Under the pieces are notes generated by a model, which did not search any database, had not been told where the DNA came from, and worked only from the letters and a program-made list of their open reading frames with translations. A program made the translations under genes and the position numbers. A stretch of DNA of 64,000 bases from Sulfurovum sp. NBC37-1 (lineage in GTDB: Bacteria; Campylobacterota; Campylobacteria; Campylobacterales; Sulfurovaceae), in NCBI RefSeq assembly GCF_000010345.1, contig NC_009663.1:1736001-1800000 (forward strand), read 5' to 3'. Below are positions 29,765 to 62,829 of this stretch, piece by piece (position 1 is the first letter of the stretch; every line of letters begins with the position of its first letter).

Positions 29765-29965
29765 TTATACCCCGCTGTCCGTTTTTTCGTTGTCCAGGTA
29801 TCTGCTTACCTCTGCTACGGTCCCTTTGGAAATACGTTCTTGATAGTCTGACCGGAAAAGCCTTGCTCTCTCTTTAGAGTTGGTAATAAAATAAACAAAA
29901 ACATTTCGATTCCCTATGATCAACTTTGCAGTACTAGAAGGTTTTATTACCCGCATAAATTTCAT
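29765..29965 (-). pseudogene. C-terminal fragment of an N-acetylmuramoyl-L-alanine amidase
   Basis: The last ~45 codons (ITNSKERARLFRSDYQERIS through VSRYLDNEKTDSGV) match the C-terminus of the amidase at 62830-63603 (ITNSKERKRLFTSDYQERIA and VSRYLDNRKVDIGV). Upstream of this the sequence is unrelated, so the catalytic domain is missing. The remaining frame is coupled by ATGA to kpsS. It marks the left boundary of the capsule locus with the same gene family found at the right boundary. Confidence 0.85.
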
Positions 29966-34650: not shown

Positions 34651-35513
34651 TCTTTTTCCTTTTGTATCTTCTTCAGGCATTCACCCAGGCTTTCTTTCCA
34701 GTACGGAATGCTTATGCCGAATGCCGTTTTGATCTTTGTTTTATTCAGTACACTGTAGTATGGCCTTTTTGCCGGTGTCGGATATGCTTTGGTTTCAATA
34801 GGGGACACTTCGCACTTTACATTCCCCAATTCAAAAATAGCCTTCGCAAGATCAAACCAGGAACAAACCCCCTCGTTTGAAAAATGGTAAACCTCTACAT
34901 TTTCATTTTCGATCTTTGGTACAATCTGTAAAATAGTCTTTGCCAGGTCTCCAGCATATGTCGGCGTCCCGACCTGATCAAAAATCACTCCTAGCTCTTC
35001 CCTCTCCGTACCCAGTCTCAGCATCGTCTTGACGAAGTTATTTCCGAAACTACTGTAAACCCAAGAGGTCCTTATGATGATCGCGTTGTGCGGATTCACC
35101 ATTTTGAGCACCTCTTCTCCCAACAGTTTCGTACTTCCGTAGACTCCGTTCGGGCCGGTTGTATCTTCCTCGACATAAGGCTTGCAGTTTGTCCCATCAA
35201 ATACATAATCGGTAGAGATATGCACCAGTTTCATCTTCCTCATTCTAGCAATCTCGGCCAAATACTTTACGGCAAGATGGTTGACTCTGTCCGCATTTTT
35301 CATCTCCTTTTCCGCTTCATCGACGTCTGTATACGCCGCGCAGTTCAGAATGATGTCGATGGCATTCTCTTCACAGAAACATTCTATAGCATTTCTATCC
35401 GTTATATCGAGCGCATTGGAATCCGTAAAGTAAAAAATGTTCTCCTCCGAAGCTAACGCTCTGATCTCCGAACCCAACTGTCCGTTACTTCCCGTTACCA
35501 GTATATTAGGCAT
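34647..35513 (-). CDS. rfbD: dTDP-4-dehydrorhamnose reductase
   Basis: The last step of dTDP-L-rhamnose synthesis. NILVTGSNGQLGSEI, STDYVFDG, YGSTKLLGE (YxxxK) and RTSWVYS are present. The frame opens further upstream, but MPNILVTG at 35513 overlaps the rfbC end by eight bases and is the family start; about 288 residues. Confidence 0.95.
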   Translation of the reverse strand: MPNILVTGSNGQLGSEIRALASEENIFYFTDSNALDITDRNAIECFCEENAIDIILNCAAYTDVDEAEKEMKNADRVNHLAVKYLAEIARMRKMKLVHISTDYVFDGTNCKPYVEEDTTGPNGVYGSTKLLGEEVLKMVNPHNAIIIRTSWVYSSFGNNFVKTMLRLGTEREELGVIFDQVGTPTYAGDLAKTILQIVPKIENENVEVYHFSNEGVCSWFDLAKAIFELGNVKCEVSPIETKAYPTPAKRPYYSVLNKTKIKTAFGISIPYWKESLGECLKKIQKEKE

Positions 35514-36081
35514 AGTGGTCCACACCGTATTCAAATATTTCATCTGTTTCGTGCAGCTTTGGCTGACTGGTGTCCCTGGTAGAAAGTTTCAGTTCCTCCG
35601 AAGGCAGCGGCCACGATATCGCTAGTTCTTTGTCTGCATAAGAGATACCTCTGTCATATTCCGGAGAGTAGTAACTGTCCACTTTGTAAGCAAAAATTGT
35701 ATTGTCTTCCAGTACGACGAACGCATGGGCAAAACCGCGCGGGACGAGAAGCTGTTTTCTGTTTTCACCGCTTAATTCGACTGCGACATGTTTGCCGAAA
35801 GTAGGACTCCCCTTTCTTATGTCTACCGCAATGTCCAGAACACGGCCAACAACCACACGAACGAGTTTGGTCTGCGCAAAGGGCGGTAACTGATAATGCA
35901 GCCCTCTCAAAACTCCTTTTGAACTTTTCGATTCGTTATCCTGGCAGAAATCTATTTTGTAACCCAAAAAAGATTCAAGTTTGTCCACTCTGAAGGTTTC
36001 AATAAAGTATCCACGCTCATCCTTATGTATTTTGGGTTCTATCACAATGACATCCGAAATTTCCATTCTTGTAAATTTCAT
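35506..36081 (-). CDS. rfbC: dTDP-4-dehydrorhamnose 3,5-epimerase
   Basis: 191 residues. DVIVIEPKIHKDERGYFIETF, GVLRGLHYQ, VDIRKGSPTFG, VPRGFAHAF and FAYKVDSYYSPEYDRGI mark the cupin epimerase RmlC with its catalytic His in LRGLHYQ. Intact, unlike its neighbour rfbB. Confidence 0.95.
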   Translation of the reverse strand: MKFTRMEISDVIVIEPKIHKDERGYFIETFRVDKLESFLGYKIDFCQDNESKSSKGVLRGLHYQLPPFAQTKLVRVVVGRVLDIAVDIRKGSPTFGKHVAVELSGENRKQLLVPRGFAHAFVVLEDNTIFAYKVDSYYSPEYDRGISYADKELAISWPLPSEELKLSTRDTSQPKLHETDEIFEYGVDHYA

Positions 36082-36096
36082 TATTTTACTGCTTTC

Positions 36097-36369
36097 TTAT
36101 TTGTCTGTCTCATCAAAAACCAGAAAAACCGGCTTTTTATTAAGTATTTTTGTATGCTTCAGAAAATCATAGATTGCGGAAGTCCCCAGTATGCTTCCGC
36201 CTATACCGACAACTGCGATGTACTTCTGTCTAACATTTTCTGCATCGTGCCTGAATTCGGAAGTATCCTGGGAAACAAAATTGTAATACCCTATATCCTC
36301 TTTTTCCATGACGATTTCGTCAAAAAGCTTCTCGTCTGCCTTATATGGCATTGAAATTGTCTTTTGCAC
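36097..36369 (-). pseudogene. N-terminal fragment of glucose-6-phosphate isomerase
   Basis: 90 codons ending prematurely. EKEDIGYYNF and YIAVVGIGGSILGTSAIYDFLKH match the start and the GxGGS sugar-isomerase motif of Pgi, followed by FDETDK and a stop where the ~400-residue enzyme would continue. The remainder is absent, since rfbC begins 16 bases later. Start GTG overlaps the cysQ stop (TAGTG). Confidence 0.85.
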
Positions 36370-37118
36370 TATTTAACCACGAACCAGGGGTTCAGAAGGT
36401 CCATCTTGTTGTAGACCAGTGGCATCCCGTTTTCATACTGGTATGTCATCCTGCCGCTCTCCCGTACAATCGCATCTGCCGCAGCCGTATCCCATTCCAT
36501 TGTAGGTGCAAGCCTGGGGTATATATCGGCTTTGCCTTCCGCTACCATGCAAAGCTTCAGAGAAGAACCTTTGGAAACCTGCACAATTTCTTTTGCATTC
36601 AGGGCATCTATAAATGCCTGTGTCTCGTCCGAAAGATGCGATTTGGACGCAACTACAGATATTTTATCCGAAGGCGCAGAATTGCTTTGTAAAGGCATCT
36701 TTTTACCATTCTTGAAAGCACCTTGGCCCTGTTTTGCCGTATACATATCGTTCAAAGCAGGTGCATAGACCACACCAAGTACAGGCATATTGTGATGGAT
36801 AAGCGCAATATTGATGGTAAATTCACCGTTCTTTTTGATGAACTCTTTGGTTCCGTCAATCGGATCAATACACCAGTAGTACTCCCAGGCCTTTCTTCTA
36901 TCATAATCGATCGTCCTGCTCTCTTCTGACATAACATGTATGCCATATTTTTCAAGCCTCTTTACGATCACGTCGTGCGACGCAAGATCCGCTTCGGTCA
37001 ATGGCGACCTGTCATCCTTGTATTCGATGGAAAAATCCCTGTTGTAAATTTCCATAATGATCTTCCCTGCCTCCAGAGCGATTTTCTCGATCTCTTTCAA
37101 ATCAATTTTATCCAGCAC
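36369..37118 (-). CDS. cysQ: 3'(2'),5'-bisphosphate nucleotidase CysQ
   Basis: CysQ hydrolyses PAP, the by-product of sulfotransferases, to AMP. The inositol-phosphatase-fold metal motifs SPLTEADLASH, WCIDPIDGTKEFI and MEWDTAAADAIV are complete. 249 residues. It is the last member of the sulfate activation block and is coupled to cysC by TAATG. Confidence 0.95.
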   Translation of the reverse strand: MLDKIDLKEIEKIALEAGKIIMEIYNRDFSIEYKDDRSPLTEADLASHDVIVKRLEKYGIHVMSEESRTIDYDRRKAWEYYWCIDPIDGTKEFIKKNGEFTINIALIHHNMPVLGVVYAPALNDMYTAKQGQGAFKNGKKMPLQSNSAPSDKISVVASKSHLSDETQAFIDALNAKEIVQVSKGSSLKLCMVAEGKADIYPRLAPTMEWDTAAADAIVRESGRMTYQYENGMPLVYNKMDLLNPWFVVK

Positions 37119-37714
37119 TATATATACCCCTTTTCCTGCAGATACACAACGATCTTCCCGGCAGACGCTTCAATATCAAGGTGCTCCGTTCGCACATGTA
37201 TTTCAGCTTTTTCTGGCGCTTCATACGGCGAAGAGATACCCGTAAAATCTGGAATCTCCCCCATCCGCGCTTTTTCATAGAGTCCCTTGGGATCACGCAG
37301 TTCGCAAATCTTCAGCGGCGTATCCACAAATACTTCGATGAACTCGTCCTTTTCAACCAGCGCACGCACAGCATCTCTCTCTCTCCGAAAAGGGGAGATG
37401 AATGCTGTCAGAACGATGATCCCCGCATCTACGAACAATTTCGAGACTTCACCGATACGCCGGATATTTTCTATCCTGTCCTCTTGTGAAAAAGTCAAAC
37501 CCTTGTTCATTCCCATACGTACATTGTCGCCATCGAGAAGATAAGTATGCTTTTGCAGCAACAGCAGCTTTGCTTCCACTGCATTTGCCACAGTGGATTT
37601 CCCAGAACCACTCAGGCCCGTAAACCAGAGTATACAGGGTTTTTGGCCTTTTATGGCGGCGCGTTCCTCTTTGCCGACCCGGTGGTCATGCCATACAATA
37701 TTTTTATTTGACAT
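37118..37714 (-). CDS. cysC: adenylyl-sulfate kinase CysC
   Basis: Phosphorylates APS to PAPS. Walker [25 protein letters not shown], and [10 protein letters not shown] with the phospho-serine are intact. 198 residues. It overlaps the DUF2061-kinase fusion by 11 bases. This is the canonical APS kinase of the pair. Confidence 0.96.
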
Positions 37715-38429
37715 AATGCTTCTTTACATAGTTTACGATAGTCTCGACAGCTTCATCGACACTCATTTGGTCTGTATCTATGGTTATCTCGGCATACTGG
37801 GGCTCTTCATACACATCGTTAATACCCGAAAAGTTCTGAAGTTCTCCCCTCATCGCCTTGTCGTACACACCTTTGTAATCCCTTTTTTTACAGGTTTCGA
37901 TATCGGCTTTTACATAAACCACAATATTGTTCTTTACCATTTCGCGAATCGCTTTACGAGATTCCGTGTAAGGTGAAACAAAGGTCGCAACAGTAGATAT
38001 GGCGTTTTTTTGCAGCTTCTGAATCAAAAATCCTATGCGGTGCATATGCCTGTTTCTCTCTTTTCGCGTATAGCCGATATGAGGAATGAGATCACGGATA
38101 TCCTTCGAATCAAGCCGCTCTATGGGAATATGGAGTTTTTCCAGTTCAATGTAGACTTTGTCTGCAATGGTGGTTTTGCCCGAAAGTGGCAATCCGGTAA
38201 ACCAAAGATTGAAGGGCTCTATCTTCTCTTCCCCCCAGTGTATCTTAAACCATATCCGCTCATGTGCCCAGTAAAGACCTACTTTCAGTACAGTCTCTAC
38301 CAAGCCTGCGGCAATGGCAAGGTCAAGTCGGTCGAAAAAAACATAAACGATTAGAATCGTCGTTGTCGTCGCAACAATACGCCAAGAAATCCCCTTTACG
38401 ATCGAACGCTGATTGGTCTCCCTGTACAT
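37704..38429 (-). CDS. DUF2061 membrane domain fused to an APS-kinase-like domain
   Basis: 241 residues. Residues 1-70 form a DUF2061-type unit ([24 protein letters not shown] and a second hydrophobic helix, then [14 protein letters not shown]). Residues ~72-241 are CysC-like with [24 protein letters not shown] and a [16 protein letters not shown] block. The GDNVR of true CysC is replaced by SKDIRD, so activity or substrate may differ. It sits between cysN and cysC and overlaps both. A membrane-tethered APS kinase near the sulfotransferases is plausible. Confidence 0.9.
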
Positions 38430-39868
38430 TAGATCACTTTACATTCCCATTCAGGAAAGTTCTCTCTTACATAAAGGTTCAATGCTCTCTCTGCATCCGT
38501 ATACTCTTTTGCGGACAACTTAACGACATCCTCTTCGCGTCTGCTGACACCGACGATCATTCCTGCACCGACCGTATCGTTGCTGATACGGTCTACTACG
38601 ATAAAAGAGCCGGTCAGACGGTTTGTCTCATAGGCGTCTGCAGCAATCGGCTGCGTTAAGACCATCTTGCACGAAGCGATATCATTAAGCCCCAGTCTGT
38701 GTACCTGCTCTCTTTCGTAGGTATTGATATCCACTTTATAGTTGATATGTTCGATGAACCCGGGCACTACGGAAGTGGCTCTTTTGATATCGTAAGTCTT
38801 TCCGGGCTCCATAGGAGTCTCATCCATCCACACCAGCATCACCTTCAGGGAGTTTGAGACTCTTGGAAGATTTTTGGTATGCACAATCATATCCCCGCGC
38901 GAGATATCCACCTCATCTTCCGTCGTAATGGTCACGGCCATTGGAGCATAGGCATATTCGGTCATCGTCTCCCTGTTCTTCTCCGTTATATCGCCGGCAT
39001 TGACAATATTTTTGACTTTTGTGGTTTTTCCCGAAGGAAGCACCGTGATCTCATCACCTGTCCTGACCAGCCCTGCGGCAATCGTACCACAAAAACCCCT
39101 AAAGTCGAGGTTCGGACGGTTCACGTACTGAACGGGGAACCTGAAATCCTCCTCTTTGGGCTCTTTGCTGATATCCATGGAGTCGAGAAGTCCGAGCAGG
39201 GGCTGACCTGAAAACCATGGTGACCTTTTGCTTCTGTCAACAACATTATCACCCTCTAGCGCCGATACGGGAATATAATACGTATTTTTGATCCCCAGTT
39301 CATCCGCCAGTGCACCGTATGCCCCAGATATCTTGTCAAACACCTCTTCGCTGAAGTCCACAAGATCCATTTTGTTGATCGCAACGATAACATGCTCGAT
39401 ACCAAGCAGGTTAACGATGAAACTGTGACGGCGCGTCTGCGTCAAAATGCCTTTACGCGCATCGATCAGGATGATCGCGACATCCGCGGTCGAAGCGCCC
39501 GTGACCATATTGCGCGTATACTGCTCATGACCCGGAGTATCCGCAATAATGAATTTTCGTTTCTCCGTAGCAAAGAATCGGTAAGCGACATCGATAGTGA
39601 TCCCCTGCTCTCTTTCACTCTGAAGTCCGTCAACAAGCAGTGCCATATCTAGTTTCTCGCCGGTTGTACCGTATTTCCTGCTTTCACCTTCCGCAGCGGA
39701 AAGCTGGTCGTCGAAGATCATTTTTGAGTCGTAGAGCATACGCCCAATCAACGTACTTTTACCGTCGTCTACCGACCCGCACGTAAGAAAACGTAGCATA
39801 TCCTTGTTTTCATGTTCTTTGAGGTATCCCTCTATATCCAGTGCTATCTTGCTGTTCTCTTTCGCCAT
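38429..39868 (-). CDS. cysN: sulfate adenylyltransferase GTPase subunit
   Basis: CysN couples GTP hydrolysis to APS formation by CysD. The G motifs GSVDDGKST, DTPGHEQYTRNM and NKMD are present, followed by EF-Tu-like domains 2 and 3. 479 residues, with no fused CysC domain. Starts two bases after the cysD stop. Confidence 0.96.
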   Translation of the reverse strand: MAKENSKIALDIEGYLKEHENKDMLRFLTCGSVDDGKSTLIGRMLYDSKMIFDDQLSAAEGESRKYGTTGEKLDMALLVDGLQSEREQGITIDVAYRFFATEKRKFIIADTPGHEQYTRNMVTGASTADVAIILIDARKGILTQTRRHSFIVNLLGIEHVIVAINKMDLVDFSEEVFDKISGAYGALADELGIKNTYYIPVSALEGDNVVDRSKRSPWFSGQPLLGLLDSMDISKEPKEEDFRFPVQYVNRPNLDFRGFCGTIAAGLVRTGDEITVLPSGKTTKVKNIVNAGDITEKNRETMTEYAYAPMAVTITTEDEVDISRGDMIVHTKNLPRVSNSLKVMLVWMDETPMEPGKTYDIKRATSVVPGFIEHINYKVDINTYEREQVHRLGLNDIASCKMVLTQPIAADAYETNRLTGSFIVVDRISNDTVGAGMIVGVSRREEDVVKLSAKEYTDAERALNLYVRENFPEWECKVI

Positions 39869-39869
39869 G

Positions 39870-40781
39870 TTAAAAATACCCCTCTATTTTTTTCAGCTCC
39901 ATTGCACCTTCCTGGTCTTTGTCTATCAGGCGACCCTCTCTTTCCGAACTCGTGGAAAGAAGCATTTCCTTAATGATCTCTGGCAAAGTGGTTGCCGATG
40001 AATTTATTGCACCGGTCAGAGGATAGCACCCAAGCGTCCTGAAACGCACCATCTCTTTTTGAGCCGTGCTTCTCAGCGTTTCAGGCATTCTGTCGTCATC
40101 GACCATAATCTTCGTACCTTCATATTCGACCACCTCCCTCTCTTTTGCAAAATAGAGTGAGGGAATAGGAATGCCTTCAAGATAAATATACTGCCACACA
40201 TCAAGCTCTGTCCAGTTGCTAATGGGAAAAACGCGTACCGATTCACCTTTCTGGATCGCCGTATTGTAGATATTCCAGAGTTCAGGTCTCTGGTTCTTCG
40301 GATCCCACCGGTGGTGTTTATCGCGAAAAGAGAAAATACGCTCTTTGGCACGCGACTTCTCCTCATCACGGCGTGCACCACCGATGACGGCATCGTAGCC
40401 GCCGGCATTAAGAGCTTGCTTCAACCCCTGGGTTTTCATCACGTCTGTGTGCACTTTTGAACCGTGCTCAAATGGGGAAATATTCATCTTTTCTCCTTCG
40501 GGATTGGAGTAGACCACAAGGTCGAACCCAAGGTCTTTCGCACGCTGGTCGCGAAACTCTATCATCTCTTTGAATTTCCACTTTGTATCTACATGCAGCA
40601 ATGGAAACGGTAACTTGCTTGGCGCAAATGCCTTCATGGCCAGATGTAACATCACAGACGAATCCTTCCCCACAGAGTACATCATCACCGGGTTGGCGAA
40701 TTCTGCCACAACTTCACGCAATATATGTATAGATTCCGCCTCAAGCTGTTTCAGATGGGTTAATCGTTCCCTATTTATCAT
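39870..40781 (-). CDS. cysD: sulfate adenylyltransferase subunit 2
   Basis: CysD adenylylates sulfate to APS. The PP-loop [17 protein letters not shown] and the [15 protein letters not shown] and [10 protein letters not shown] blocks are typical. 303 residues. Its ATG overlaps the galU remnant stop (ATGA). No cysH, cysI or cysJ is nearby. Confidence 0.96.
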
Positions 40782-45682: not shown

Positions 45683-46330
45683 TTACAAATTACTCACAAT
45701 ATTATAGTATAATTCAATATCTTCCTTTAAAAATAATTCTAATTTTCCAGTTAGCTCTGCTGACAAATTCATATCAATTTTTTGTGCAACATTTTTAATT
45801 GGTATCTCAATTTTTTTACCTATTTTATCCTCCAAAAAAGATTTAACAAGATCCATTCTTTCCATAGGAAAAATATTATTTATTCCAATTTTTCCATTAT
45901 CTAACATCAAGAAATCTTTTTGTGTACCTATGCGAACGTATCGACTATCGGATCCTTCAATCATCTCGGTTACAAATTCCTGAAAAGTAATATTACCAGT
46001 ATAGTTGGCATGATTGGGATGCCTCGGATTTTTTAAAGGATCTCTCATCCGAAACCTATACCAAGAATGAACCCAATCAACTGGATCCCTAACTAAACAA
46101 AAAGTTTCTATTTTTTTTCCAGGCAGAACTTTTTGATGAAAAGCAGCAACATAACTATGATAATCTCTAGCATTCATATGCTTTAGAAGTGGATTCTTAT
46201 GATAATTTATACTACAATATTTTGATATTGTCTTTTCAATTGAGGTAGAAGCACATTTAGGCATACATAAAAAAGCAAACCCATATTTAGTTGACAATTG
46301 CATTTTATTCCTTAAATCCTGAAAAATCAA
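45683..46330 (-). CDS. sulfotransferase-family protein
   Basis: 215 residues. The 5'-phosphosulfate loop is FLCMPKCASTSIEKTI and the 3'-phosphate loop is FCLVRDPVDWVHSWYRFR, both in the expected order for PAPS-dependent sulfotransferases. The gene is very AT-rich. First of three adjacent sulfotransferase-like genes read towards the PAPS cassette. The acceptor is unknown; a capsule sugar is likely from context. Confidence 0.8.
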   Translation of the reverse strand: MIFQDLRNKMQLSTKYGFAFLCMPKCASTSIEKTISKYCSINYHKNPLLKHMNARDYHSYVAAFHQKVLPGKKIETFCLVRDPVDWVHSWYRFRMRDPLKNPRHPNHANYTGNITFQEFVTEMIEGSDSRYVRIGTQKDFLMLDNGKIGINNIFPMERMDLVKSFLEDKIGKKIEIPIKNVAQKIDMNLSAELTGKLELFLKEDIELYYNIVSNL

Positions 46331-46398
46331 TAGAGTGCAATCTGTGGTTGTTTTTGTCTTCTGATGAAATTAAAATATACTTTTTCATCTTCTTTATT

Positions 46399-47286
46399 TT
46401 ATAAATCAAAAAAACTCTTCCACGAACCAGGAATGCGAATATGTTCTTGATCTATCTCTTCAACCATACCCCTATATTTTTCTTTAAGATAATTCAATAT
46501 ATCATCATCCATATCAATTTCTTTCGAGACAAGTCTTTTCTTTGATAAATTAGGAAAATATTCGAGAAGAAAATCAATATCTAAAAAATCACATATATCT
46601 TCCATTAATTCATTGGGGCCGCTCTCAATTTGATCAAAAAATAGATATTTGATATTTTCTTTTGGAAAAATTGATTCTACCCTTTTCATTGTTTGTAAAT
46701 AATTGCTTCTATTTTCAACATTTTTTTTACTCAAATAATTATAAATAGTATCTTTGTCTAGATCTGGTGTCTTAATTTTATTTTTATTGTCAGAAAGTTT
46801 TTTATATGTCATAAGATCAAACCTCAGCGACGACCAATCTCTTAATGCAGGATTTCTTATAATAAATATAATTTTAATATTATTATTAAGATTATATATT
46901 TTTTTGTAAGTAGCTCTTGATAGTAGCGCATATGCGGGTGTGCTTTCTCCTACTTTTTTATACATATGCCTACTATCTATAAATAATTCACCATACCATT
47001 TGATATTTCTTTTATTGTTTGGAGTTTGAACAAAATTCAAAGCCCAATCAAGGTTTTTTCTATTAATTGTTTTTCCATTAATAACTTTGGTTGATAAATG
47101 ATGCAAATAATTACTTAACCATCTTTTTCTTTTTTTATCTTCATTTATACGACGTCCAAACTCTAATTCATCGAAAAAATGCAATTCTTTATATAGGGGT
47201 GTCCAAACATCAGGATGCCTTTTTAGATTATCATCTAACCAACTTGTACCACTTTTATGTGCACCAATACACAGAAAATCAACCAT
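46399..47286 (-). CDS. sulfotransferase
   Basis: 295 residues. CIGAHKSGTSWLDDNLKRHPDV is a classical PAPS 5' loop and IIRNPALRDWSSLRFD the 3' loop. The end RIPGSWKSFF resembles the C-terminal GxWK-type segment of cytosolic-type sulfotransferases. AT-rich; eight bases before it lies the end of the next sulfotransferase gene. Confidence 0.88.
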   Translation of the reverse strand: MVDFLCIGAHKSGTSWLDDNLKRHPDVWTPLYKELHFFDELEFGRRINEDKKRKRWLSNYLHHLSTKVINGKTINRKNLDWALNFVQTPNNKRNIKWYGELFIDSRHMYKKVGESTPAYALLSRATYKKIYNLNNNIKIIFIIRNPALRDWSSLRFDLMTYKKLSDNKNKIKTPDLDKDTIYNYLSKKNVENRSNYLQTMKRVESIFPKENIKYLFFDQIESGPNELMEDICDFLDIDFLLEYFPNLSKKRLVSKEIDMDDDILNYLKEKYRGMVEEIDQEHIRIPGSWKSFFDL

Positions 47287-47294
47287 ATTTATCC

Positions 47295-48170
47295 CTAAAA
47301 TTCTATTCCGAAATCTTGTCTTAGTTTATTTTTGCTAGTTTTATAAACATTATTTATTATTGCCAAATCCTGCTCATCCAAGAGAAATTTTGCAGCATTT
47401 TCTTTTGGAAGATTGACTCCGACACGCAGCAATTGTTTTAGTTTTTTTACTTTGACTTTTTCATCTATATCGGATGATGCAATGTCAATATAAGCTTGGA
47501 TGAGCCAAGGATGGACACCCACATTTGATTTATTCATCTTGTCTTTAATTCTTATCTTTATCCCAATAGCATCAAAAAAATCTTCCAAAAGACTGTTATT
47601 GATAAAACTTTTTTTCTCATATTTCCTAACTATTAAAGATTCTTTTCCAAATACTTTTATCCAAGGTTGCAATCTAGCTGGATAAAATGCAGCTGCAAAG
47701 TTATAATTTTCAGCTATATAAGTTTTAAAAGAACAATTTATCTGCCTTGCCCTAATCGCATGACTATAAAGCGAAAGCATGAACTCTACGGGTTCCCTCA
47801 TATAGACAACCAATTTCACCTCATACTCTCTTAAATACTCCTTTATTTTTTCTATAGAAATAATTTGACTATCCAGCAGTACAAAGTCTTCGCTTGAAAT
47901 AATGATATTTTTACACCCCGTACTTAGTAATTGTTTTTTGTAAAAGTCCAATATTTTCTCTCTATTAATCTCATCAACATTCCCCCAGCGAGGTGGATTG
48001 TTGTTGAAAGCCCACGAAAGATCAACATTACCGGGAAAAGCATCATCATGACTTCTTGGATAAAAAATATCTTGTCGTTCCAACTCTTCACGATGGTTAT
48101 CAAGATACTCTTGTAAAGCAGATGTGCCGGTTTTATGAAATCCTATATGTAAAAATAGTTTCTTCTTCAA
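47295..48170 (-). CDS. sulfotransferase-like protein
   Basis: 291 residues. The 5' loop is LFLHIGFHKTGTSALQEYLD and the 3' loop is VVYMREPVEFMLSLYSHAIR. The central region holds SSEDFVLLDS, common in this bacterial subgroup. AT-rich. It begins 21 bases after the end of the 1395-residue glycosyltransferase. Confidence 0.85.
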   Translation of the reverse strand: MKKKLFLHIGFHKTGTSALQEYLDNHREELERQDIFYPRSHDDAFPGNVDLSWAFNNNPPRWGNVDEINREKILDFYKKQLLSTGCKNIIISSEDFVLLDSQIISIEKIKEYLREYEVKLVVYMREPVEFMLSLYSHAIRARQINCSFKTYIAENYNFAAAFYPARLQPWIKVFGKESLIVRKYEKKSFINNSLLEDFFDAIGIKIRIKDKMNKSNVGVHPWLIQAYIDIASSDIDEKVKVKKLKQLLRVGVNLPKENAAKFLLDEQDLAIINNVYKTSKNKLRQDFGIEF

Positions 48171-48191: not shown

Positions 48192-51100
48192 TTATATTGT
48201 TGCCAATCTTTTCTGCCACGTACAAAACGCCCTCACCTCTTTTCTGTTATCCACCCTAGATATGATGGGTTTCTCGTCGTAATTACACTCGACATCGAAC
48301 CGATCTATTGGCATACCATTCATTACTTTCAGAGCATTGTTCACGAATGTATCCATCTCCCAGTCTAGTGTCCGGGTGGAAGCGAAAACGATACCCGCCT
48401 TTTGCCTTTTTTTAAATTCTTCTTCATCCTTAAATACCTGCAATATCGCTTTGGCTATCGATTCTGGGGATTGATACGCCAATTTGATCGTACCCGTCGG
48501 ATAGTCGATCAGGTTGTTGTATCTGTAGATATCTACAGCCACAACACCCGCTGCCATAAATTCAAATGGAATCCTGGAAGGATTGGTCATACTGATACAG
48601 AGACCGACTTTGCATTTATTATACAAATCATTCAATTTAGAAATATTATAAATAAGTCCGAGATTTTCTACTTCGAAATCCAAATGGAGATCAGCATCTG
48701 AACCATAAACATAGATTTTAATATCAGGGTTTTTTTCTTTGACAATCCTCAATGCCTCAATAGCCATCTGGGGATTACGTCGGAATTTCTCCGGCTGATA
48801 GAGAAAACTGATCGCATCCTCCCTTTCTCCACCTTTGTTGAAATAAACATTCGTATCAATACCGAGACCTGCAGGAACCGCTCGTGCATTGTACTGATGA
48901 TGCAGCAGATGCGTCAGAAAACTTCCAACAGTAAAATGAAGATTTCCAAAAGTATAGCTGTTTTCATTAATAGAATAGATATCCCCCATCGGATTGAACC
49001 AAGCTTCGAAATCCTGCACTAGATAAGCCTTGTGTCTGACATTTTTCAAGCCGGCTACCAATTTTGAAGAGTGTGCGATCGTAGCGACTGCCATATCGAA
49101 CTCGCTATTTTTGGGCCAGCCTACCAACACGTGTGCTCTATTCTCTCTCATATAGTCATAGGCCACCTCCACTCCCGCTCCCTCTTCTTCCAGAAAGCAA
49201 TAGACATCACATCCTGCCTCTACAAATTTGCTAGCCAGATTAAAAAGTGTACGATGACCTCCTGATCCGGCTATGGGAGCCGGTGCATAAATTGCTACCC
49301 TGAAATCCAGCTTTTTGTCATTGAGAAAAAACTTACTGTAAAAGGCCAGCGGCGTGTTGGTCAGATCGGATTTCACTGCGCATATAGCTTTCTGAACTTT
49401 GGGTATATTCAGATACCCCTCTTTCCATCGCACAGAGTCCAGATGGCGACTGACATAGTGATACAGTACCGAACCTTTCTTACTCTTCAGGTTTTTTACA
49501 AAATCCTGATCCACATCCATTGTCTGGTATTTTCCTGTTCCGAATGTTTCGTTGTGTGTCAGTTCGAAAAAAGCTTCTGCAACCTGTACAGGGGGGTTTG
49601 CCAACAACTGTTTCGCAATCTGCCTGGACACATCTTTCAGATCTGACGAAGTCAAGCCATGAATGGCAATATATTCTATGACTTCAGGAATCACTTTTTT
49701 GATCCCACTCTGGAAGTAGGAAGTATATTTGACAAAGACATTATCTTCGGCTCTTTCCTCTTTCTTAACAGCAAGAATTGTTCCGTCTTTCGACTCATAG
49801 CCTATCGTGGATCCCCCCAATGAGTTGAACAACATCTCTATTGGACCGACTTCATGATTCGTCCAGTCATTCTCCTGAATATTATTGTCAAACAACCAAC
49901 CACACTTGCTCACCTCCTCCTGCCGATTCAGATAATTGAACAGACCAAGATAACAGCCATGCACATGCTCGTCAACCAACATCGATATATTGTCCTGGAT
50001 CGTACCCCTCCAGCCCAAATCAACGATCATAGAGACAGATTTACCCTGATTTAGACCTTTTTGCTTGAGGTACTGTTTAATATATCGTCTCTGCACATCG
50101 ATATACTTTTTGACTATATCTTGGAAGGCACTCGACTCGATCAGCTTTACAAATTTTTTGTTTTCCCAGGGATATTTAATTTTTTGAAAATATCGAAATC
50201 CATATTTTTTGAAAACTTTTTTAGACTCCATGTTATCGACATTGAGAGAGGCACAGAATGCTTTCGGTGATTGAATGCTGTATTGGTTCCAAAGCTTCAT
50301 AAGGTTTTCGACATTTACCTTTGCAAGAGAAGGAGCAAATGTAGCCAGCCTGCTCACTTCCAAAAGCTCACTTTTGGGATAGGATAAATAGTAAGGGTCA
50401 GCCTCGACGACAAGATCATAGATCTCTTTGAGAAAGATTCCCTCTCTGGTAAAGAAATAGATAGTTTCCACATTCAAACGCTTTGCCTCTTCGATGATAT
50501 GCAATATATATCCTATAGCAATCGGTGCCAGTTTTGCACCAATTTTCTCACTGGCATTGAATATTGATTTTTTGGATAAAATATTACATAAATTAAAAAC
50601 TCTTTTCCCATGCAGTAGCGTTTCACCACTCAATTTTTCATAAAATGCATCCTCGAACCATTTATGAAGCATTTTTTCATGATTGTCTTCATAATGAAAA
50701 GTTCCAATACCTAGTTTAGATGGCACATCAACATCTGCATGCTTATTATCACCTATATGAAAGAGTTCATTAGGTTCCAGCTGAAATTCTTCAAGTATAT
50801 GTTTATACAATTTCCCTGATCTTTTGTTTTTTATCAGATCACAGGAGACATAACCTTTGGTAAAATGACGAATGACATTGTTCTTTCTTAGAAGTTTTTG
50901 CATAAACGTATTTGGCATATAAAAATCAGAGGCAAAAATTACATTTTTGAATTTCAACTTCTTCAAAAAAATATCCATAGACGCATCTTTTTCGGTGCTT
51001 CTCAACTCCGCCTTGAGTTCATGATTGAGGAGTTTCTTTTTTATTCGTATTAACATTGCACTCTGCACACCTGTTTCAAAAGCTTCTACGAGCCACTTAT

Positions 51101-52379
51101 CGACTGCCTCTTCATATCTAAACTCATAGTCATCTGTCAAAGAGGACAAATCTTCACTCTTTTTCCTAAGATTATACAAGGAATTAATATCACGATATGC
51201 AGGTTTGAGTATTTTAAGATAGTTGATATGGAGATATCTAGCTGCTGAAAGTTTTATCTCGTCAGGATGGCATTTTCTCCGAAGTATTGTATCCCATATA
51301 TCCAAAGAAAGTAATTTAATATTACTGTCAATTTTTACTTTTTTTAGGTTTCCCCTTTTATTACTGTACAAATAGTCAAAAAAATTTTCTTTATGTTCTT
51401 TTTCTGAATCGATATTCAAATCAATAATATTATTTTCTGCTCTCTGAAAATATTTTTTGATTTTTTGATTTAATATTGATCTGTCCTTCTCGTCCACATT
51501 TTGAAATCTTCCTTCTACTTTTCCAAATTGAATAAAATGTACAAATGAATTGAGACTACTCTCTTTAACGTCCGGATACTCATTAAGATACCATTCGACA
51601 TCAAAATCAGGGTTTGGATTTTTACCTTCAAAAGAGCCATAACGTAGAAAATGCTCTATTGGACAAATATCATAAACATTGAACATTTTTTGGTACCATT
51701 CCTTATCGAAGTATGGCTCAATGATTTTTATATTTTCTTGTAGATATTTCTCATCAGGATTTTGGAACTTCCCTTCTGCTTTTCCAAATTGAATAAAATG
51801 TATAAATGGATTGAGACCACTCTCTTTAACGTCCGGATACTCATTAAGATACCATTCGACATCAAAATCAGGGTTTGGATTTTTACCTTCAAAAGAGCCA
51901 TAACGTAGAAAATGCTCTATTGGACAAATATCATAAACGTTGAACATTTTTTGGTACCATTCTTTATCGAAGTATGGCTCAATGGTAAGTTTGTCACTCT
52001 CCTCAATATTTTCACCATCTTTTTCTTCGTACTTGTCAAAATTTACCGATGATACAATATTTTGATAGCCTACTTTACAAAAATGCTCAAAAATAGAAGA
52101 AACTTCTTCATTCTCTAAGGCCACTTTCGCTTCAGGAAAACTATTGAGATAATCAGACTCATTATAAGCATCTAAATCTTTGTGAAATTTGCGCTCACCT
52201 TCTTCGATCTCTTTTAATCCAAAGACTTTTAAATGATGTACTGCATCTTCAAACTGACCCTCCTTTATAGCTTTCCTGACATCCGGGTTTGCCTCAAGAT
52301 ATAACTCAGCATCGAAATCTTTAATTAAAAATGATATTTCATTCTTTCTTTGATTATTTTTCTTTCTAAAGTTAAACAT
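48192..52379 (-). CDS. giant HAD plus GT4 glycosyltransferase with WYLxxYPDV repeats
   Basis: 1395 residues. The N-terminus has repeats of the WYLNEYPDV/HF.QFG type: a degenerate copy near residue 20 (YLEANPDV), one near 77, and two nearly identical 87-residue copies at 134-220 and 221-307. A HAD-like domain follows at ~355-575 (LLSLDIWDTIL, FASDFYMP, HIGDNKHADVD). A middle part (~600-1030) with YFFTREGIFLKEIYDLV is unassigned. The C-terminus (~1050-1370) is a GT-B/GT4 domain of WsaF type (APAPIAGSGGHRTLFNLA, LVQDFEAWFNPMG, ISMTNPSRIPFEFMAAG). A rhamnosyltransferase-like role in chain synthesis is inferred. Confidence 0.85.
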   Translation of the reverse strand: MFNFRKKNNQRKNEISFLIKDFDAELYLEANPDVRKAIKEGQFEDAVHHLKVFGLKEIEEGERKFHKDLDAYNESDYLNSFPEAKVALENEEVSSIFEHFCKVGYQNIVSSVNFDKYEEKDGENIEESDKLTIEPYFDKEWYQKMFNVYDICPIEHFLRYGSFEGKNPNPDFDVEWYLNEYPDVKESGLNPFIHFIQFGKAEGKFQNPDEKYLQENIKIIEPYFDKEWYQKMFNVYDICPIEHFLRYGSFEGKNPNPDFDVEWYLNEYPDVKESSLNSFVHFIQFGKVEGRFQNVDEKDRSILNQKIKKYFQRAENNIIDLNIDSEKEHKENFFDYLYSNKRGNLKKVKIDSNIKLLSLDIWDTILRRKCHPDEIKLSAARYLHINYLKILKPAYRDINSLYNLRKKSEDLSSLTDDYEFRYEEAVDKWLVEAFETGVQSAMLIRIKKKLLNHELKAELRSTEKDASMDIFLKKLKFKNVIFASDFYMPNTFMQKLLRKNNVIRHFTKGYVSCDLIKNKRSGKLYKHILEEFQLEPNELFHIGDNKHADVDVPSKLGIGTFHYEDNHEKMLHKWFEDAFYEKLSGETLLHGKRVFNLCNILSKKSIFNASEKIGAKLAPIAIGYILHIIEEAKRLNVETIYFFTREGIFLKEIYDLVVEADPYYLSYPKSELLEVSRLATFAPSLAKVNVENLMKLWNQYSIQSPKAFCASLNVDNMESKKVFKKYGFRYFQKIKYPWENKKFVKLIESSAFQDIVKKYIDVQRRYIKQYLKQKGLNQGKSVSMIVDLGWRGTIQDNISMLVDEHVHGCYLGLFNYLNRQEEVSKCGWLFDNNIQENDWTNHEVGPIEMLFNSLGGSTIGYESKDGTILAVKKEERAEDNVFVKYTSYFQSGIKKVIPEVIEYIAIHGLTSSDLKDVSRQIAKQLLANPPVQVAEAFFELTHNETFGTGKYQTMDVDQDFVKNLKSKKGSVLYHYVSRHLDSVRWKEGYLNIPKVQKAICAVKSDLTNTPLAFYSKFFLNDKKLDFRVAIYAPAPIAGSGGHRTLFNLASKFVEAGCDVYCFLEEEGAGVEVAYDYMRENRAHVLVGWPKNSEFDMAVATIAHSSKLVAGLKNVRHKAYLVQDFEAWFNPMGDIYSINENSYTFGNLHFTVGSFLTHLLHHQYNARAVPAGLGIDTNVYFNKGGEREDAISFLYQPEKFRRNPQMAIEALRIVKEKNPDIKIYVYGSDADLHLDFEVENLGLIYNISKLNDLYNKCKVGLCISMTNPSRIPFEFMAAGVVAVDIYRYNNLIDYPTGTIKLAYQSPESIAKAILQVFKDEEEFKKRQKAGIVFASTRTLDWEMDTFVNNALKVMNGMPIDRFDVECNYDEKPIISRVDNRKEVRAFCTWQKRLATI
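51480..51980. repeat. in-gene tandem repeat, period 261 bp (87 codons)
   Basis: Two copies of a 261-bp unit; the stretch coding for DFDVEWYLNEYPDVKES and the preceding FLRYGSFEGKNPNP is nearly identical at DNA level, with a few changes toward the edges. It is a recent duplication that extends the repeat domain in frame. Confidence 0.85.
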
Positions 52380-53056: not shown

Positions 53057-54361
53057 TTACTCCAAAAGATTCACATCAAGTATTTCGTTAAGCTCATCAT
53101 ACTGTGAGGGATCCATATCTCTAAGCGCTTTTTTTGCTGTTTCAAACAAATCTTCTTCACAGCCGATTCCCATAGAAACACCCAAGGGTTTTTCTGCAAC
53201 AGAAACTGCCATTCTCTTTTCAATCCACTTGATATCTGATTTATTTTTTTGCAAAACGGTATCAATCAGGCTTTGTCTCAACAGAAATCTGTCACCTATC
53301 TTTTGTAAAAGAAAATTCAAAAGCTTTATTCTGCCTTTTTCATTTTCTGACACTGGTTTTTTTGACAGTAAGCGTTTGTTTGCCAGATAGAAAATGGCTG
53401 TAGCCTGTAGCGACAACGATTCGTTTGCCCTGTGGGAAATCACACAGTCGGCATCCAGACCGATTCTTAACAGAAAATCACAAACCACATCACTGTTTTT
53501 CATTTTTTTTGGATCGAAGTGTATCAGCTGTACATTTTCTTTTCCGAAAACAGTATCGAACTTTTCAAACCTGTTTCTGTAATGGGGGTAGTCGTTTTCA
53601 AAATCAAAAGTATACGCACCCCCCTTGACACGCTCCTGAAAACTGCTTGACATATAACTGGCCGGGGAGCGCACATAGGCGACAATTTCAATTTTCTTAA
53701 AAAAGCGCAGCAGAAAACTACGAAATGTGAGCAGTGAGGGCTTCGGCAGGACGCTGATATCTTCCCCTGACAGAAGAAAAGTACTGCAGTGAGGATTTTC
53801 GGAAAGATGCTTTGCAAAAAGTTCCTTTACCGATCGGTTGTAAGCTTTCACCTGTTCCTTACTTTTCCCTGCTCGACTGTGTATATGATAGTGCTCCGGT
53901 TTTGGCACAAAAAGGCTGTATATAGGGATACTGTGATTTTGCGCATGCAAATTGAAATAGGAGAATGTTTCGTCTGTCAAGCTGCTTAGCGCCTGCTGTA
54001 TGGATGTAGAGCCCGTTTTGTGCATGCCTATATGTACAATACAAAGCTCTTTCTTTGCAAACTCTCCATCGCTGGCAAAACCTTCCTGAACAACAAATTC
54101 AAATTCCTCCTCTTTGCATTTCAGACGCACATCATCCAGTGTATCAATGTCATATTTATATAACAATCCCACATCACCCGTAGGGTGGATGTTGGCAGTG
54201 ACAAGGTCATCTCTTTGTACACTTGCCGACAGGTCAGATACTTTTTTACCGTTGACATAAAGTTCGAAAGAGAGCGGCCTGCTAATCTTTCTTTCGTCGA
54301 AAAACCACCCCTGTATCCGTGTATCGTCGATAATTTGTGCCGTTCCCTTTATTGTATGCAT
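53057..54361 (-). CDS. sulfotransferase-like protein with N-terminal beta domain
   Basis: 434 residues. Residues 1-95 form a beta-rich domain (IQGWFFDERKISRPLSFELYVNGKK, SVQRDD). From ~108 comes a sulfotransferase-type domain: 5' loop IVHIGMHKTGSTSIQQAL, LLSGEDISVL and the 3' loop VAYVRSPASYMSSSFQE. The beta domain resembles the C-terminus of the protein at 58489. It overlaps the end of the large GT2 gene by 13 bases. Confidence 0.8.
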   Translation of the reverse strand: MHTIKGTAQIIDDTRIQGWFFDERKISRPLSFELYVNGKKVSDLSASVQRDDLVTANIHPTGDVGLLYKYDIDTLDDVRLKCKEEEFEFVVQEGFASDGEFAKKELCIVHIGMHKTGSTSIQQALSSLTDETFSYFNLHAQNHSIPIYSLFVPKPEHYHIHSRAGKSKEQVKAYNRSVKELFAKHLSENPHCSTFLLSGEDISVLPKPSLLTFRSFLLRFFKKIEIVAYVRSPASYMSSSFQERVKGGAYTFDFENDYPHYRNRFEKFDTVFGKENVQLIHFDPKKMKNSDVVCDFLLRIGLDADCVISHRANESLSLQATAIFYLANKRLLSKKPVSENEKGRIKLLNFLLQKIGDRFLLRQSLIDTVLQKNKSDIKWIEKRMAVSVAEKPLGVSMGIGCEEDLFETAKKALRDMDPSQYDELNEILDVNLLE

Positions 54362-57300
54362 TCCGTCCCTTCTTTTGTATTGTTTTCAGGAGAAGATCTC
54401 AAAAATATGACTGAAAAATCTTCTCTTTCTAGAGTCAAATTGGGATTATAGTACGGGTCGCCTTCTTTTAAAATTTTACTCCATTTGTTTTTCATGAATT
54501 CCACCTCTTTTTTAAAACGTTCCTGTTTTTCGGGAGTATCCTCCTCTCCCCTGCTTTTAGATTCATGATGGTACGCTTCCACCCATGGAGTAAAAAGATT
54601 TAAATACCCATTCTTTTGCAATTTCAGGCAAAAATCGACATCGTTGAACGCAACTTGCAGGTTTACCTCATCCAGACCGCCCACTTCGTCATAGATGGCT
54701 TTTTTGACCATTAGCAGTGCTGCTGTTACAGATGAAAGGTTCTGGACAATATGCAGCCTGGAAAAATAGCCTGGAACATTCTTTGAGAAATATTTGTGAG
54801 CATGGCCGGCAACACCACCGATCCCGAGAACAATACCGGCATGCTGAATGGTGCCGTTCGGGTAATAGAGTTTGCTTCCAACCGCACTCACATCGTCTCT
54901 TTGAGAGAACATCAGCATCTCCTCGATCCAGTTGGACGTAATAATCTCTATATCGTTATTCATCAGGACTATATGCTTTCCTTTAGCACAGGACGATACA
55001 GCAAAATTGTTGATCTTCGAATAGTTAAAAGTGTCATTGTACTCGCAGAATCTTACCCGGCTATCACGCTTTTCAAGCCTTTTCATCTCTTTGAACGTCT
55101 CCCACTCTTTCGAACGGTTGTTGATGCCAATGATCTCGTAATTTTGATAGCTTGATTTTTTCAGGATGGATTCAATACAGGTTTTTAAAAGTTCAGGCTT
55201 GTCCTTAAAAGGAATAATAATACTTACAAGTGGCTCCTCCTTAAGCTCGTACTTCACCCTATAGGTACCGGGATATTTTCCATTTTTTACATCGGCTTTT
55301 ATAGCCCTTCTCTTCATCGCATTTTCAAGTGCTTTTCTACCTGCTTCCTGTGCATACGATTTAGCGGAATATTCTGCAGCTGTGGAGCCTGGAACTTTTC
55401 TCCAGTGGTACAAAACCTTTGATATATGTGAGATCTTTTCTGTATGTTCAAGCACCTTCAGGTATAGATCGTAATCCTGGCTACCTTCAAGTCCGGCCTC
55501 CCATCCTCCAACTCTGTCAACCAGCTCCTTTTTAATGACAACCAGATGGCTCAGGTAGTTTTGGGAAAGGAACATATCGGGAGAGAAGTCTGGTTTAAAA
55601 TGAGGTTCAGCAAACGTACCGTCCTCTTCTATTTTGTCTTCGTCACTATAGATGAGCTCCGCTGCTTTTGTATTAATGGCTTTGAGAATTTCATAAAGTG
55701 CATCAGGTGTGAGCTCATCATCATTATCCATTAGTGCTATATATTCTCCCTTTGCTAACTTCAGGGCCTCATTAGAGGCTCCACAGATTCCTAAGTTTTT
55801 TTTCAGAAAGCGTATTTTTATTTTGTGATGGTCGATCTTCCGCAAATACGCTTTTGTTTCTTCGCTTGTCGATGCATCGTCGGCAATACACAGTTCCCAC
55901 CTTCCATACCACTGATTTTCAACAGATTCAATAGCCAGTTTGAGCCATTTTGGTACAACATTATAGACCGGCATAACAATGGAGAAGAGAGGCTGTTTTG
56001 AAAATCTTTTAATCTCATAGCGGATCTTGCTTGAGAGTACCGGCCTCTCATAACGATAGGAAAGTGCTTTTGGAAAAGGCCTGATACCCTTGAGCATCTC
56101 TTCGTATCCAAATTCTAGGAAATGCCAAAATAGGGGAAAATCCGGCTGATACTCTTTTGCTTTTTGTAGATCAGGATTGTTTAGTAGATAGATTTGCTCT
56201 TTAAAGTAGGGGAACTCCATACCAATGCGCCTACCGCCATTTTCGACCTCATTGCGGCCGAACCATATAAAGTGGTCTGTCGCATTCAAAAAATCTCCCC
56301 TTTCCACGGCTGTCGCAACATCTGGATTTACTTCCAAATAGTCTGCTTCGTCAAAAATTTCAAAAAATGCATCAGGTATCTTTTTTTGTTTCTTTTTGAA
56401 CTGTTTTACCTTTTTTGACATCAAGATTTTATTTTTCCACCCTTCCGTATAGTATTTGTCAAGCTGTTTTAGTTTTTCTTTGCCCGTGCCACTTTCCGTA
56501 TTGATTGAAAAATTTTCATGCTGTCGCGTCAGATTCCGGTTGTAGTATGGGTCCTTCAGAAGCTGCTTTTTCCACTTTTCAAGCATATATTTTATTTCTC
56601 TTCCAAATCTTTCTGTCTTTTCGGGTGTATCGTCTGACCCGCGGCTTATGGACTCATGGTGATAGAGTTCGGAATAGGGTGTCCAGAGGTTTCGATAGCC
56701 TTTTTGCTGGAGCTTCAAACACAGGTCGACATCATTGAACGCGACTGCGAGATTTTCTTCGTTCAACCCGCCAGCTTCAAGATAGACCGACTTTCGCATT
56801 AATAAGCAGGCCGCAGTAACGGCAGAGTAGTTCTGGATAATTTTGAGCCTTGAGAAGTATCCGTGGTGATTCTGGGGAAAATATTTGTGGGAGTGCCCTG
56901 CGACACCGCCTATACCAAGCACAATACCAGCATGCTGGATCGTGTGGTTGTCGTAGTAAAGTTTAGCACCAACCGCTCCGATCTCTGGACGTATAGCATG
57001 CTGTACCATTTCACTCAACCATCCGCTACTGATGATTTCCACATCGTTGTTTAGTAGCCCGATTATCTCACCCCTGGCATATTGTACTCCGTAATTATTG
57101 ATGGCGGAGTAGTTGAAGGGATGGTGGTACTCCAGAATGCGTATATGCTCATGTTTTTTCAGTATCTCAAAATAGCGCAGCGTTTTCGGGTCTGTTGATT
57201 CATTATCCACGATCAGTATTTCATAGTTTTCATAAAGTGTTTTTTGGAGAATGCTCTCTATGCACTTATGGAGAATATTGTAACTGTCCCTCGTAGGGAC

Positions 57301-58374
57301 TACGAGAGATACCAGGGGCATTTCAACGATAGGATACACAACCTTGTACGTATTTGCCAACAAACCGTTCTCTACGGAAATAGACCTATCTTTTCGTAAA
57401 AAATAATCTTGCAGCCCCCTCAACCCTGCATCATGCGCATAGGCTTTTTCATTTGAGCCGTAGGCGGTAGAACCTTTGATGGCACGCCAGTGGTAGAGTA
57501 TTTTTTCGACTCTGCCTATCTCCTCTTTACCGATATGATCGAGACATCTCAGTACAAGGTCGTAATCCTGGCTGCCTTCGTATCCTTTTCTGAACCCTCC
57601 AACTTTATCAATAATCTCTTTTTTGATTATAAGCAGGTGTGTTATATAGTTCTGGGAAAAGAACATGTCCGGATTCCAGCCAGATTTGAAATGCGGCATG
57701 TACCTATTTGAATTTTCATCGATCTTGTCCTCATCGGAATAGAGTATTTTGAGTTTTCTGTCTTCATTCAGCTTTTTGGCCATCTCGTAGAGTGCATTCG
57801 GAGAAAGGGTGTCGTCATGATCAAGAAAAGCGACATAGTCACCCAATGCAATGGAAAGAGCTGTATTCGATGCTTCCGATATGTGTCCGTTTTTTTTCCT
57901 GTAAACCACTTTGACGGCCGGATGTTTTGTTCTGTAGTATTCCAGCGTATCGATAGTTTCACGGTCTGTCGAAGCATCATCTGCGATACATAGTTCCCAG
58001 TTTCCGTATGTCTGGGAAAGGACAGACTCCAGCATTTCCGTCAAATATCTTTTCTTTGTGTTGTACGTCGGCACAATGATCGAAATAAGAGGAAAAAAGC
58101 CCAAAGGCTCTGTGCGATATATCTCTTTCTCGTTTTTTTCTATCCATATCCTGTATTCGGACTTTTTATAAAAACGGGTATGCTCATAGGAGTGCAGCCT
58201 AGACCAGTCTTTTTCAAGTCTCTCAAGCATTCCCTGCCAACCATGCTTCTTATAACGAACATGCGACTTTCTCACGATGGCAAAAGGATCGTTTGTTCTC
58301 TCCTGCCACATCATGTACATCAAGCTACCTGTGCTTTTTATCAGGGAAAGTATCATTCTTCCAAGGACCTTCAT
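54349..58374 (-). CDS. 1341-residue glycosyltransferase with four GT2 domains
   Basis: Built from two homologous ~500-residue modules, each with two GT-A domains. Module 1: PLISIIVPTYN at ~95 and PLVSLVVPTRD at ~351. Module 2: PLFSIVMPVYN at ~796 and PLVSIIIPFKD at ~1050. Both modules share IADDAST, YSDEDKI, NDVEII/NNDIEII, QHAGIVLGIGGVAGH and YHHES blocks, so all four appear catalytically equipped. Between the modules lies a YLEVNPDV-type repeat (~681) as in the 1395-residue protein. It probably builds the capsule repeat unit. Confidence 0.9.
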   Translation of the reverse strand: MKVLGRMILSLIKSTGSLMYMMWQERTNDPFAIVRKSHVRYKKHGWQGMLERLEKDWSRLHSYEHTRFYKKSEYRIWIEKNEKEIYRTEPLGFFPLISIIVPTYNTKKRYLTEMLESVLSQTYGNWELCIADDASTDRETIDTLEYYRTKHPAVKVVYRKKNGHISEASNTALSIALGDYVAFLDHDDTLSPNALYEMAKKLNEDRKLKILYSDEDKIDENSNRYMPHFKSGWNPDMFFSQNYITHLLIIKKEIIDKVGGFRKGYEGSQDYDLVLRCLDHIGKEEIGRVEKILYHWRAIKGSTAYGSNEKAYAHDAGLRGLQDYFLRKDRSISVENGLLANTYKVVYPIVEMPLVSLVVPTRDSYNILHKCIESILQKTLYENYEILIVDNESTDPKTLRYFEILKKHEHIRILEYHHPFNYSAINNYGVQYARGEIIGLLNNDVEIISSGWLSEMVQHAIRPEIGAVGAKLYYDNHTIQHAGIVLGIGGVAGHSHKYFPQNHHGYFSRLKIIQNYSAVTAACLLMRKSVYLEAGGLNEENLAVAFNDVDLCLKLQQKGYRNLWTPYSELYHHESISRGSDDTPEKTERFGREIKYMLEKWKKQLLKDPYYNRNLTRQHENFSINTESGTGKEKLKQLDKYYTEGWKNKILMSKKVKQFKKKQKKIPDAFFEIFDEADYLEVNPDVATAVERGDFLNATDHFIWFGRNEVENGGRRIGMEFPYFKEQIYLLNNPDLQKAKEYQPDFPLFWHFLEFGYEEMLKGIRPFPKALSYRYERPVLSSKIRYEIKRFSKQPLFSIVMPVYNVVPKWLKLAIESVENQWYGRWELCIADDASTSEETKAYLRKIDHHKIKIRFLKKNLGICGASNEALKLAKGEYIALMDNDDELTPDALYEILKAINTKAAELIYSDEDKIEEDGTFAEPHFKPDFSPDMFLSQNYLSHLVVIKKELVDRVGGWEAGLEGSQDYDLYLKVLEHTEKISHISKVLYHWRKVPGSTAAEYSAKSYAQEAGRKALENAMKRRAIKADVKNGKYPGTYRVKYELKEEPLVSIIIPFKDKPELLKTCIESILKKSSYQNYEIIGINNRSKEWETFKEMKRLEKRDSRVRFCEYNDTFNYSKINNFAVSSCAKGKHIVLMNNDIEIITSNWIEEMLMFSQRDDVSAVGSKLYYPNGTIQHAGIVLGIGGVAGHAHKYFSKNVPGYFSRLHIVQNLSSVTAALLMVKKAIYDEVGGLDEVNLQVAFNDVDFCLKLQKNGYLNLFTPWVEAYHHESKSRGEEDTPEKQERFKKEVEFMKNKWSKILKEGDPYYNPNLTLEREDFSVIFLRSSPENNTKEGTECIQ

Positions 58375-62699: not shown

Positions 62700-62829
62700 C
62701 GATCTCCTCCTCCACGTCAAGCTGACATCGGGCTTTGTGTAGTATTATACCCAAACCATATTAAGGGAAATTATCAATATTTTGAGAATCAACAACCCCT
62801 ACTCGGTCAGGGAATTATTCCCAACAAGA

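Follow-up and report, generated by a model that had tools for sequence, protein, structure and literature searches.

A probable fusion of two neighbouring dual-glycosyltransferase genes in a capsule locus of Sulfurovum sp. NBC37-1

Described systems and their relation to the protein

K4 chondroitin polymerase and heparosan synthase play a role in ABC-exported capsules. K4 chondroitin polymerase (2z86/2z87) and heparosan synthase 2 (8vh7/8viw) both carry a pair of GT-A domains in a single chain that polymerises a capsule, and are the best PDB matches, by sequence profile as well as by fold, to the protein described here. They have two sites, however, where our protein has four, and they share only 13–19% identity with it.

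A different parallel is provided by ORF6-C, the C-terminal half of ORF6 of Klebsiella pneumoniae O7, whose two GT2 domains are proven to depend on dTDP-Rha and together add three Rha residues: the first domain adds two α-1,2-Rha and the second one α-1,3-Rha (PMC11231755). Like ORF6-C, the protein described here has a DXDD motif followed by NXD, with a spacing of 257 residues (185–442) and 256 residues (883–1139) in its two halves against 255 (975–1230) in ORF6-C, and as in O7 the glycan is predicted to be exported by an ABC transporter and rml genes lie in the cluster. O7 ORF6 has only one such module, joined via a coiled coil to a methyltransferase-kinase, whereas our protein has two, and the O7 product is an O antigen rather than the capsule expected here; the likeness is one of motif layout and spacing (PMC11231755). 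In PBCV-1 A111/114R, several GT domains of different function likewise occur in one chain, but that protein has three domains, acts on a viral N-glycan and is not a repeat of one module (PMC7826918). The capsule of Vibrio sp. KMM 8419, a product with 3-O-sulfated L-Rha, resembles our locus in its KpsDMET transport, dTDP-Rha, PAPS genes and sulfotransferases, although the part of its GT table that was covered holds no four-domain protein (PMC11641403). Finally, single-module A-B proteins of Campylobacterota and Proteobacteria (for example L009, L013, L094, L095) have the same module with the same motifs, but one module each.

The window analysed is a stretch of 64,000 nucleotides from Sulfurovum sp. 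NBC37-1 (NC_009663.1, positions 1,736,001 to 1,800,000), and all features below lie on its minus strand unless stated otherwise. We judge it reasonably probable that two adjoining capsule-operon genes in this window have fused, and that the product is a synthase with four sites, probably adding rhamnose, for a capsule that is sulfated and exported by an ABC transporter. The fused protein is a new arrangement of already known parts. Our literature search, which had most subscription papers outside its reach, found no title or abstract on this protein or on a bacterial four-GT2 capsule synthase. The protein offers a clear case of how a multi-site polysaccharide synthase can originate, from adjacent dual-transferase genes to one chain, and relatives still show the unfused state. 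Should all four sites be active, it would also be well suited to testing whether a repeat has its order and length set by the joining of sites in one chain.

Anatomy of the four-domain protein

The fused gene occupies 54349..58374 as a single uninterrupted frame of 1341 residues, matched by PF00535 in four separate places (E 1.6e-93; 311.7 bits, cut-off 23.3). The original prediction, of four GT2 domains in one polypeptide at exactly this position with no strand given, is therefore borne out, as is the repetition of one order of motifs in two modules of two domains each (A-B-A-B). The modules were predicted to be about 500 residues long; there are indeed two, but they measure approximately 535 residues, and some 160 residues of linker lie between them. 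Module 1 (residues 45–630) and module 2 (755–1336) are 49% identical over 598 columns, far above chance. By domain, identity is 49% for 1A–2A, 56% for 1B–2B and 24–29% for A–B pairs.

An N-terminal segment (residues 1–94; 58093..58374) is typical of one family of single-module genes, here called type 1, with matches of 32–64% in type-1 loci. The four domains are supported by Pfam, motifs and structural models. Domain 1A spans residues ~95–335 (57370..58092) and contains D185-H-D-D, QDYD at 269–272 and YHWR at 294, while domain 1B spans residues ~350–628 (56491..57327) and contains N442-N-D, FNDVD at 546 and YHHES at 571. The fusion junction and linker follow (residues 629–790; 56005..56490), with NPDV-type repeats at 674–719 and 724–768. 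Domain 2A (residues ~791–1037; 55264..56004) has D883-N-D-D, QDYD at 966–969 and YHWR at 989; domain 2B (residues ~1044–1326; 54397..55245) has N1139-N-D, FNDVD at 1243 and YHHES at 1268.

Inspection of the DxD-type motifs thus found one in every domain, with none lost: D185HDD in 1A, N442ND in 1B, D883NDD in 2A and N1139ND in 2B. The downstream motif that holds the Asp expected to act as base is also kept four times (QDYD in 1A and 2A, FNDVD in 1B and 2B), and so is the His motif (YHWR and YHHES respectively). Since all four metal-binding and base motifs are kept, four working transferases are the most likely outcome, and the expectation that one chain could add several sugars is consistent with these motif sets. 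Among the 57 aligned modules, D-x-D-D is present in 52 A domains (missing in L032, L034, L059, L063 and L064) and N-x-D in 56 B domains (missing in L089). L032 and L034 are single-module relatives in which an A domain without DxDD is accompanied by a B domain with NxD. These two A domains indicate that members of the family can do without one of their sites, which would suit a protein in which only some of the four sites work and the rest hold acceptor chains or are relics; given that DxDD or NxD, the base Asp and the His motif are kept at all four sites of the window protein, we regard this as unlikely.

Structures were predicted module by module using AlphaFold2, module 1 from an alignment of 8 rows and the linker with module 2 from 9 rows. 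The mean pLDDT was 67.7 and 64.6 respectively, which represents modest confidence. In both models the GT-A cores are predicted with confidence and the C-terminal parts and linker poorly, so that the proposed GT-A fold is supported for each module; the models are too poor to show how the two domains of a module are placed relative to each other. For both models, two dual GT-A polymerases, K4 chondroitin polymerase and heparosan synthase 2, head the PDB matches; single GT-A enzymes come next, among them the TDP-rhamnose enzyme RmlT. The rmsd over the full chain against the two dual polymerases is 17–24, at the low identity given above, and the likeness to them therefore holds domain by domain only.

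Origin of the two modules

A tree of 57 rows of A-B modules was constructed using IQ-TREE. Module 1 of the window protein falls among type-1 single-module genes, in a set of seven rows (support 99/98); its module 2 groups with two genes of genome G177 (100/99) within a second family, type 2. Single modules of alpha-, beta- and gammaproteobacteria lie on the same side of the tree as module 1 (100/97). The best single-module relatives are up to 71% identical to module 1 and 74% to module 2, compared to 49% between the modules. Forcing modules 1 and 2 to be sisters is rejected for whole modules (dlnL 325, p-AU 4e-55), and also by domain (p 3e-86 for A, 5e-7 for B) in tests on 50 of the 57 rows, the other seven being left out for long branches or degenerate motifs.

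The protein had been described as made by module duplication, with a phylogeny against single-module homologues proposed as a check. In that phylogeny each module belongs to a different single-module family and the two are not sisters; since sisterhood is rejected, the protein is not an internal duplication. The tree and AU tests lead us to reject this origin, the modules not being each other's closest relatives. What stands of the original prediction is that the modules are old and diverged: they are paralogues of old origin, but it was a gene fusion, rather than an old duplication, that would have built the protein. A remaining form of the duplication idea is that the module was duplicated within one gene and that the single-module genes found elsewhere are later splits. 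The shared domain order and the 49% identity between modules would fit this, and G177 provides an example, within the family, of a module copied recently from one neighbour to another. Against it stand the rejected sisterhood, both whole and by domain, the closer identity of each module to single-module genes than to the other, the proteobacterial single modules on module 1's side, and the many separate splits that would be needed. We therefore consider it very improbable.

The unfused state is seen in two related genomes. In G177 (L080) the gene order is KpsM, KpsT, KpsE, one ORF, a 611-aa gene, 20 bp, and an 819-aa gene, followed by a homologue of the gene next to the fused gene in the window (sulfotransferase-like, 45%), CysD (80%) and CysN (53%). 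The 611-aa gene has an N-terminus of type 1 (34% over 50 residues), and the 819-aa gene has the linker repeats (45%) and module 2 (74%). The two A-B modules of this pair (L080 11353–15662) are, however, both of type 2 and 94.7% identical over 585 residues, and their N-terminal parts differ despite the near-identical modules. A recent copy has thus replaced or made the first module, and in their modules the two G177 genes do not represent one gene of each type. In G494 (L081), a type-1 gene (67%), one 512-aa ORF and a type-2 gene (68%) with linker repeats are followed by RmlC and RmlD, and by genes whose opening residues alone mark them as RmlA- and RmlB-like. The halves therefore exist as separate genes in one operon, which argues for gene fusion.

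A KpsE homologue lies near 11 of the 17 loci whose type-1 slot is occupied, on the same strand in ten and divergent in L036; it was not found near L039, L041, L043, L055, L016 or L024, most of which have little upstream sequence. None of the six loci with only a type-2 gene (L048, L049, L053, L083, L084, L090) shows KpsE, and five of these six show only a KpsT-like gene, at 29–33%.

At the junction in the window protein, the usual end of a type-1 gene runs on into the usual start of a type-2 gene, and the residues on either side agree with the ends of the G177 pair. The fused gene was also searched for a start of module 2 that might have been kept; Met652 has a purine-rich stretch, but one lying too far upstream of it to convince. 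We conclude that the fused protein is, as far as sequence can tell, a fusion of two neighbouring paralogous genes and not a copy of one half. In the proposed sequence of events, the ancestor would have had two neighbouring genes in an ABC-exported capsule operon, each encoding one dual GT2 (A-B) module. The first would be the type-1 gene, which lies behind kpsE in related genomes, and the second the type-2 gene, whose repeat-bearing N-terminal part would now be the linker. The stop of the first gene and a short spacer would have been lost at around residues 625–665.

Relatives were searched for in two overlapping sets, one of 175 genomes from the family and one of 397 from the phylum. The close relatives with frames examined are single A-B modules, apart from the window protein and L043 (G133 contig 46). 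The latter has the same A-B-A-B order and a longer linker, but two frame changes split it into three frames. Holding the two fusions together in the tree, as for a single origin, gave p values of 0.011 and 0.020 for whole modules and, by domain, 0.0004 for module 1 A and 0.28, 0.73 and 0.41 for the others, so that one of the four domain tests rejects a single origin. That the only other full-order copy in Campylobacterota is frame-broken might raise the suspicion of an assembly or annotation artefact in the window protein. We find this hardly credible, because the genome is a single contig of 2,562,277 bases with 100% completeness, the 1341 codons contain no stop, and the sequence on both flanks of the junction corresponds to the gene ends of the G177 pair.

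In a tblastn search of 72,556 plasmid records, 832 matched, and in 26 of these a single place covers 80% or more of the query; none of the matches listed is A-B-A-B, all 40 places being of approximately 1.3–2.0 kb and thus single modules. Among the 160 collected ORFs with at least one domain, 56 have one, 87 two, nine three, seven four and one five. Eight (the window protein included) therefore have at least four, most of them in other orders. Because similarity to the window protein and long frames guided the choice of loci, these counts are not population rates. A search for the A-B-A-B order among the 160 ORFs and in 369 genomes from the class to which Allopusillimonas soli belongs yielded one more case, L149, a protein of 1107 aa with a weak first B domain (41 bits) and modules only 28% identical to each other. 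The domain counts, and the presence of this order there only in the window protein and L149, thus indicate that many-domain GT2 proteins are not unique and that the A-B-A-B arrangement is uncommon. L159, L087 and L154 (2219, 1821 and 1491 aa) have four or five GT2-like domains in other orders.

The capsule locus and its probable product

Upstream of the fused gene are genes for KpsE-like (59404–60498), KpsT (60501–61166), KpsM (61163–61939) and KpsD/Wza-like (61947–62720) proteins, and KpsC-like and KpsS-like genes (Capsule_synth) lie at 29962..33163. KpsM, KpsT, the KpsD-like protein, KpsC and KpsS pass Pfam cut-offs, while the NCBIfam scores of KpsE, KpsM and KpsS are below cut-off. With a KpsMTED exporter and KpsC/KpsS present, the locus is, judged from its gene content, of the ABC-dependent (Kps) capsule type.

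The locus also contains the gene set for a sulfated polysaccharide, comprising PAPS synthesis and sulfotransferases. A sulfotransferase-like gene (53057..54361), below the Pfam cut-off, has a start that overlaps the end of the fused gene, and three more lie at 45683..48170; two of the four pass the cut-off (46399–47286 and 45683–46330) and two are below it. Genes for CysD, CysN, two APS kinases and CysQ are found at 36369..40781. The two APS kinases (37118–38429) are different and adjoin, the second having an extra N-terminal stretch. By analogy with Vibrio sp. KMM 8419, a sulfated capsule is the likely product, and the locus points to such a capsule in a deep-sea vent chemolithoautotroph.

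RmlD and RmlC, for dTDP-L-rhamnose, are encoded at 34647..36081, both above curated cut-offs. Intact RmlA and RmlB genes occur at 1.606–1.609 Mb in the same genome. Next to RmlD and RmlC is a 187-aa RmlB remnant (34117–34680) which matches only profile positions 2–58 and 210–313, its middle being missing. In Azospirillum argentinense and S. fredii NGR234, too, A-B modules have rfb/rml genes as neighbours. On the basis of the motif layout of O7 ORF6-C, the rml genes and these two neighbourhoods, we take rhamnose to be the likeliest donor, with roughly an even chance of being correct. Enrichment of rml genes near A-B modules is weak across the 42 loci of at least 9 kb: a homologue of the window's RmlC occurs in only four of these (L042, L048, L081, L085), which makes the neighbourhood link to rhamnose a weak one.

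Alternatively, the donors might not include rhamnose, the four domains forming a synthase of a glycosaminoglycan-like polymer of uronic acid and hexosamine that is later sulfated. The nearest solved structures, K4 chondroitin polymerase and heparosan synthase, are glycosaminoglycan-making enzymes rather than rhamnosyltransferases and would fit such a product, as would the sulfation genes; yet those matches are domain-wise, at fold level and of 13–19% identity, the O7 ORF6-C enzyme with the same DXDD/NXD layout uses dTDP-Rha (PMC11231755), and rml genes are present in the locus. We consider this alternative improbable. On the preferred reading, of a rhamnose-adding synthase, the four GT-A sites would extend the capsule chain one after another, L-rhamnose from dTDP-L-rhamnose being the most likely sugar; the neighbouring sulfotransferases would then sulfate the chain, and KpsMTED would export it.

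The linker repeats may connect the fused protein to a second transferase. The repeat occurs twice in the linker (674–719 and 724–768), and repeats of the same NPDV type occur six times at the start of a neighbouring 1395-aa protein (48192..52379), which continues with a HAD-like part and a C-terminal GT4 domain (WsaF_C). We count this WsaF_C domain among the points in favour of the preferred reading. A profile of the repeat matches 34 ORFs of the collected loci, the window's own among them, and a comparison of the repeat linker with Pfam gave no match. We suggest that the repeats are a docking or scaffold part. A more speculative extension, which we think doubtful, is that one polypeptide holds all or nearly all of the transferase sites for a sulfated rhamnose-rich capsule repeat, with the linker docking the 1395-aa GT4 partner in a two-protein assembly line and the fusion fixing the order of addition.

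One further gene, at 58489–59400 on the plus strand, is opposite in strand to the capsule operon and is without a Pfam match. Its homologues (34–35%) are likewise opposite in strand inside the kps loci L044 and L051.
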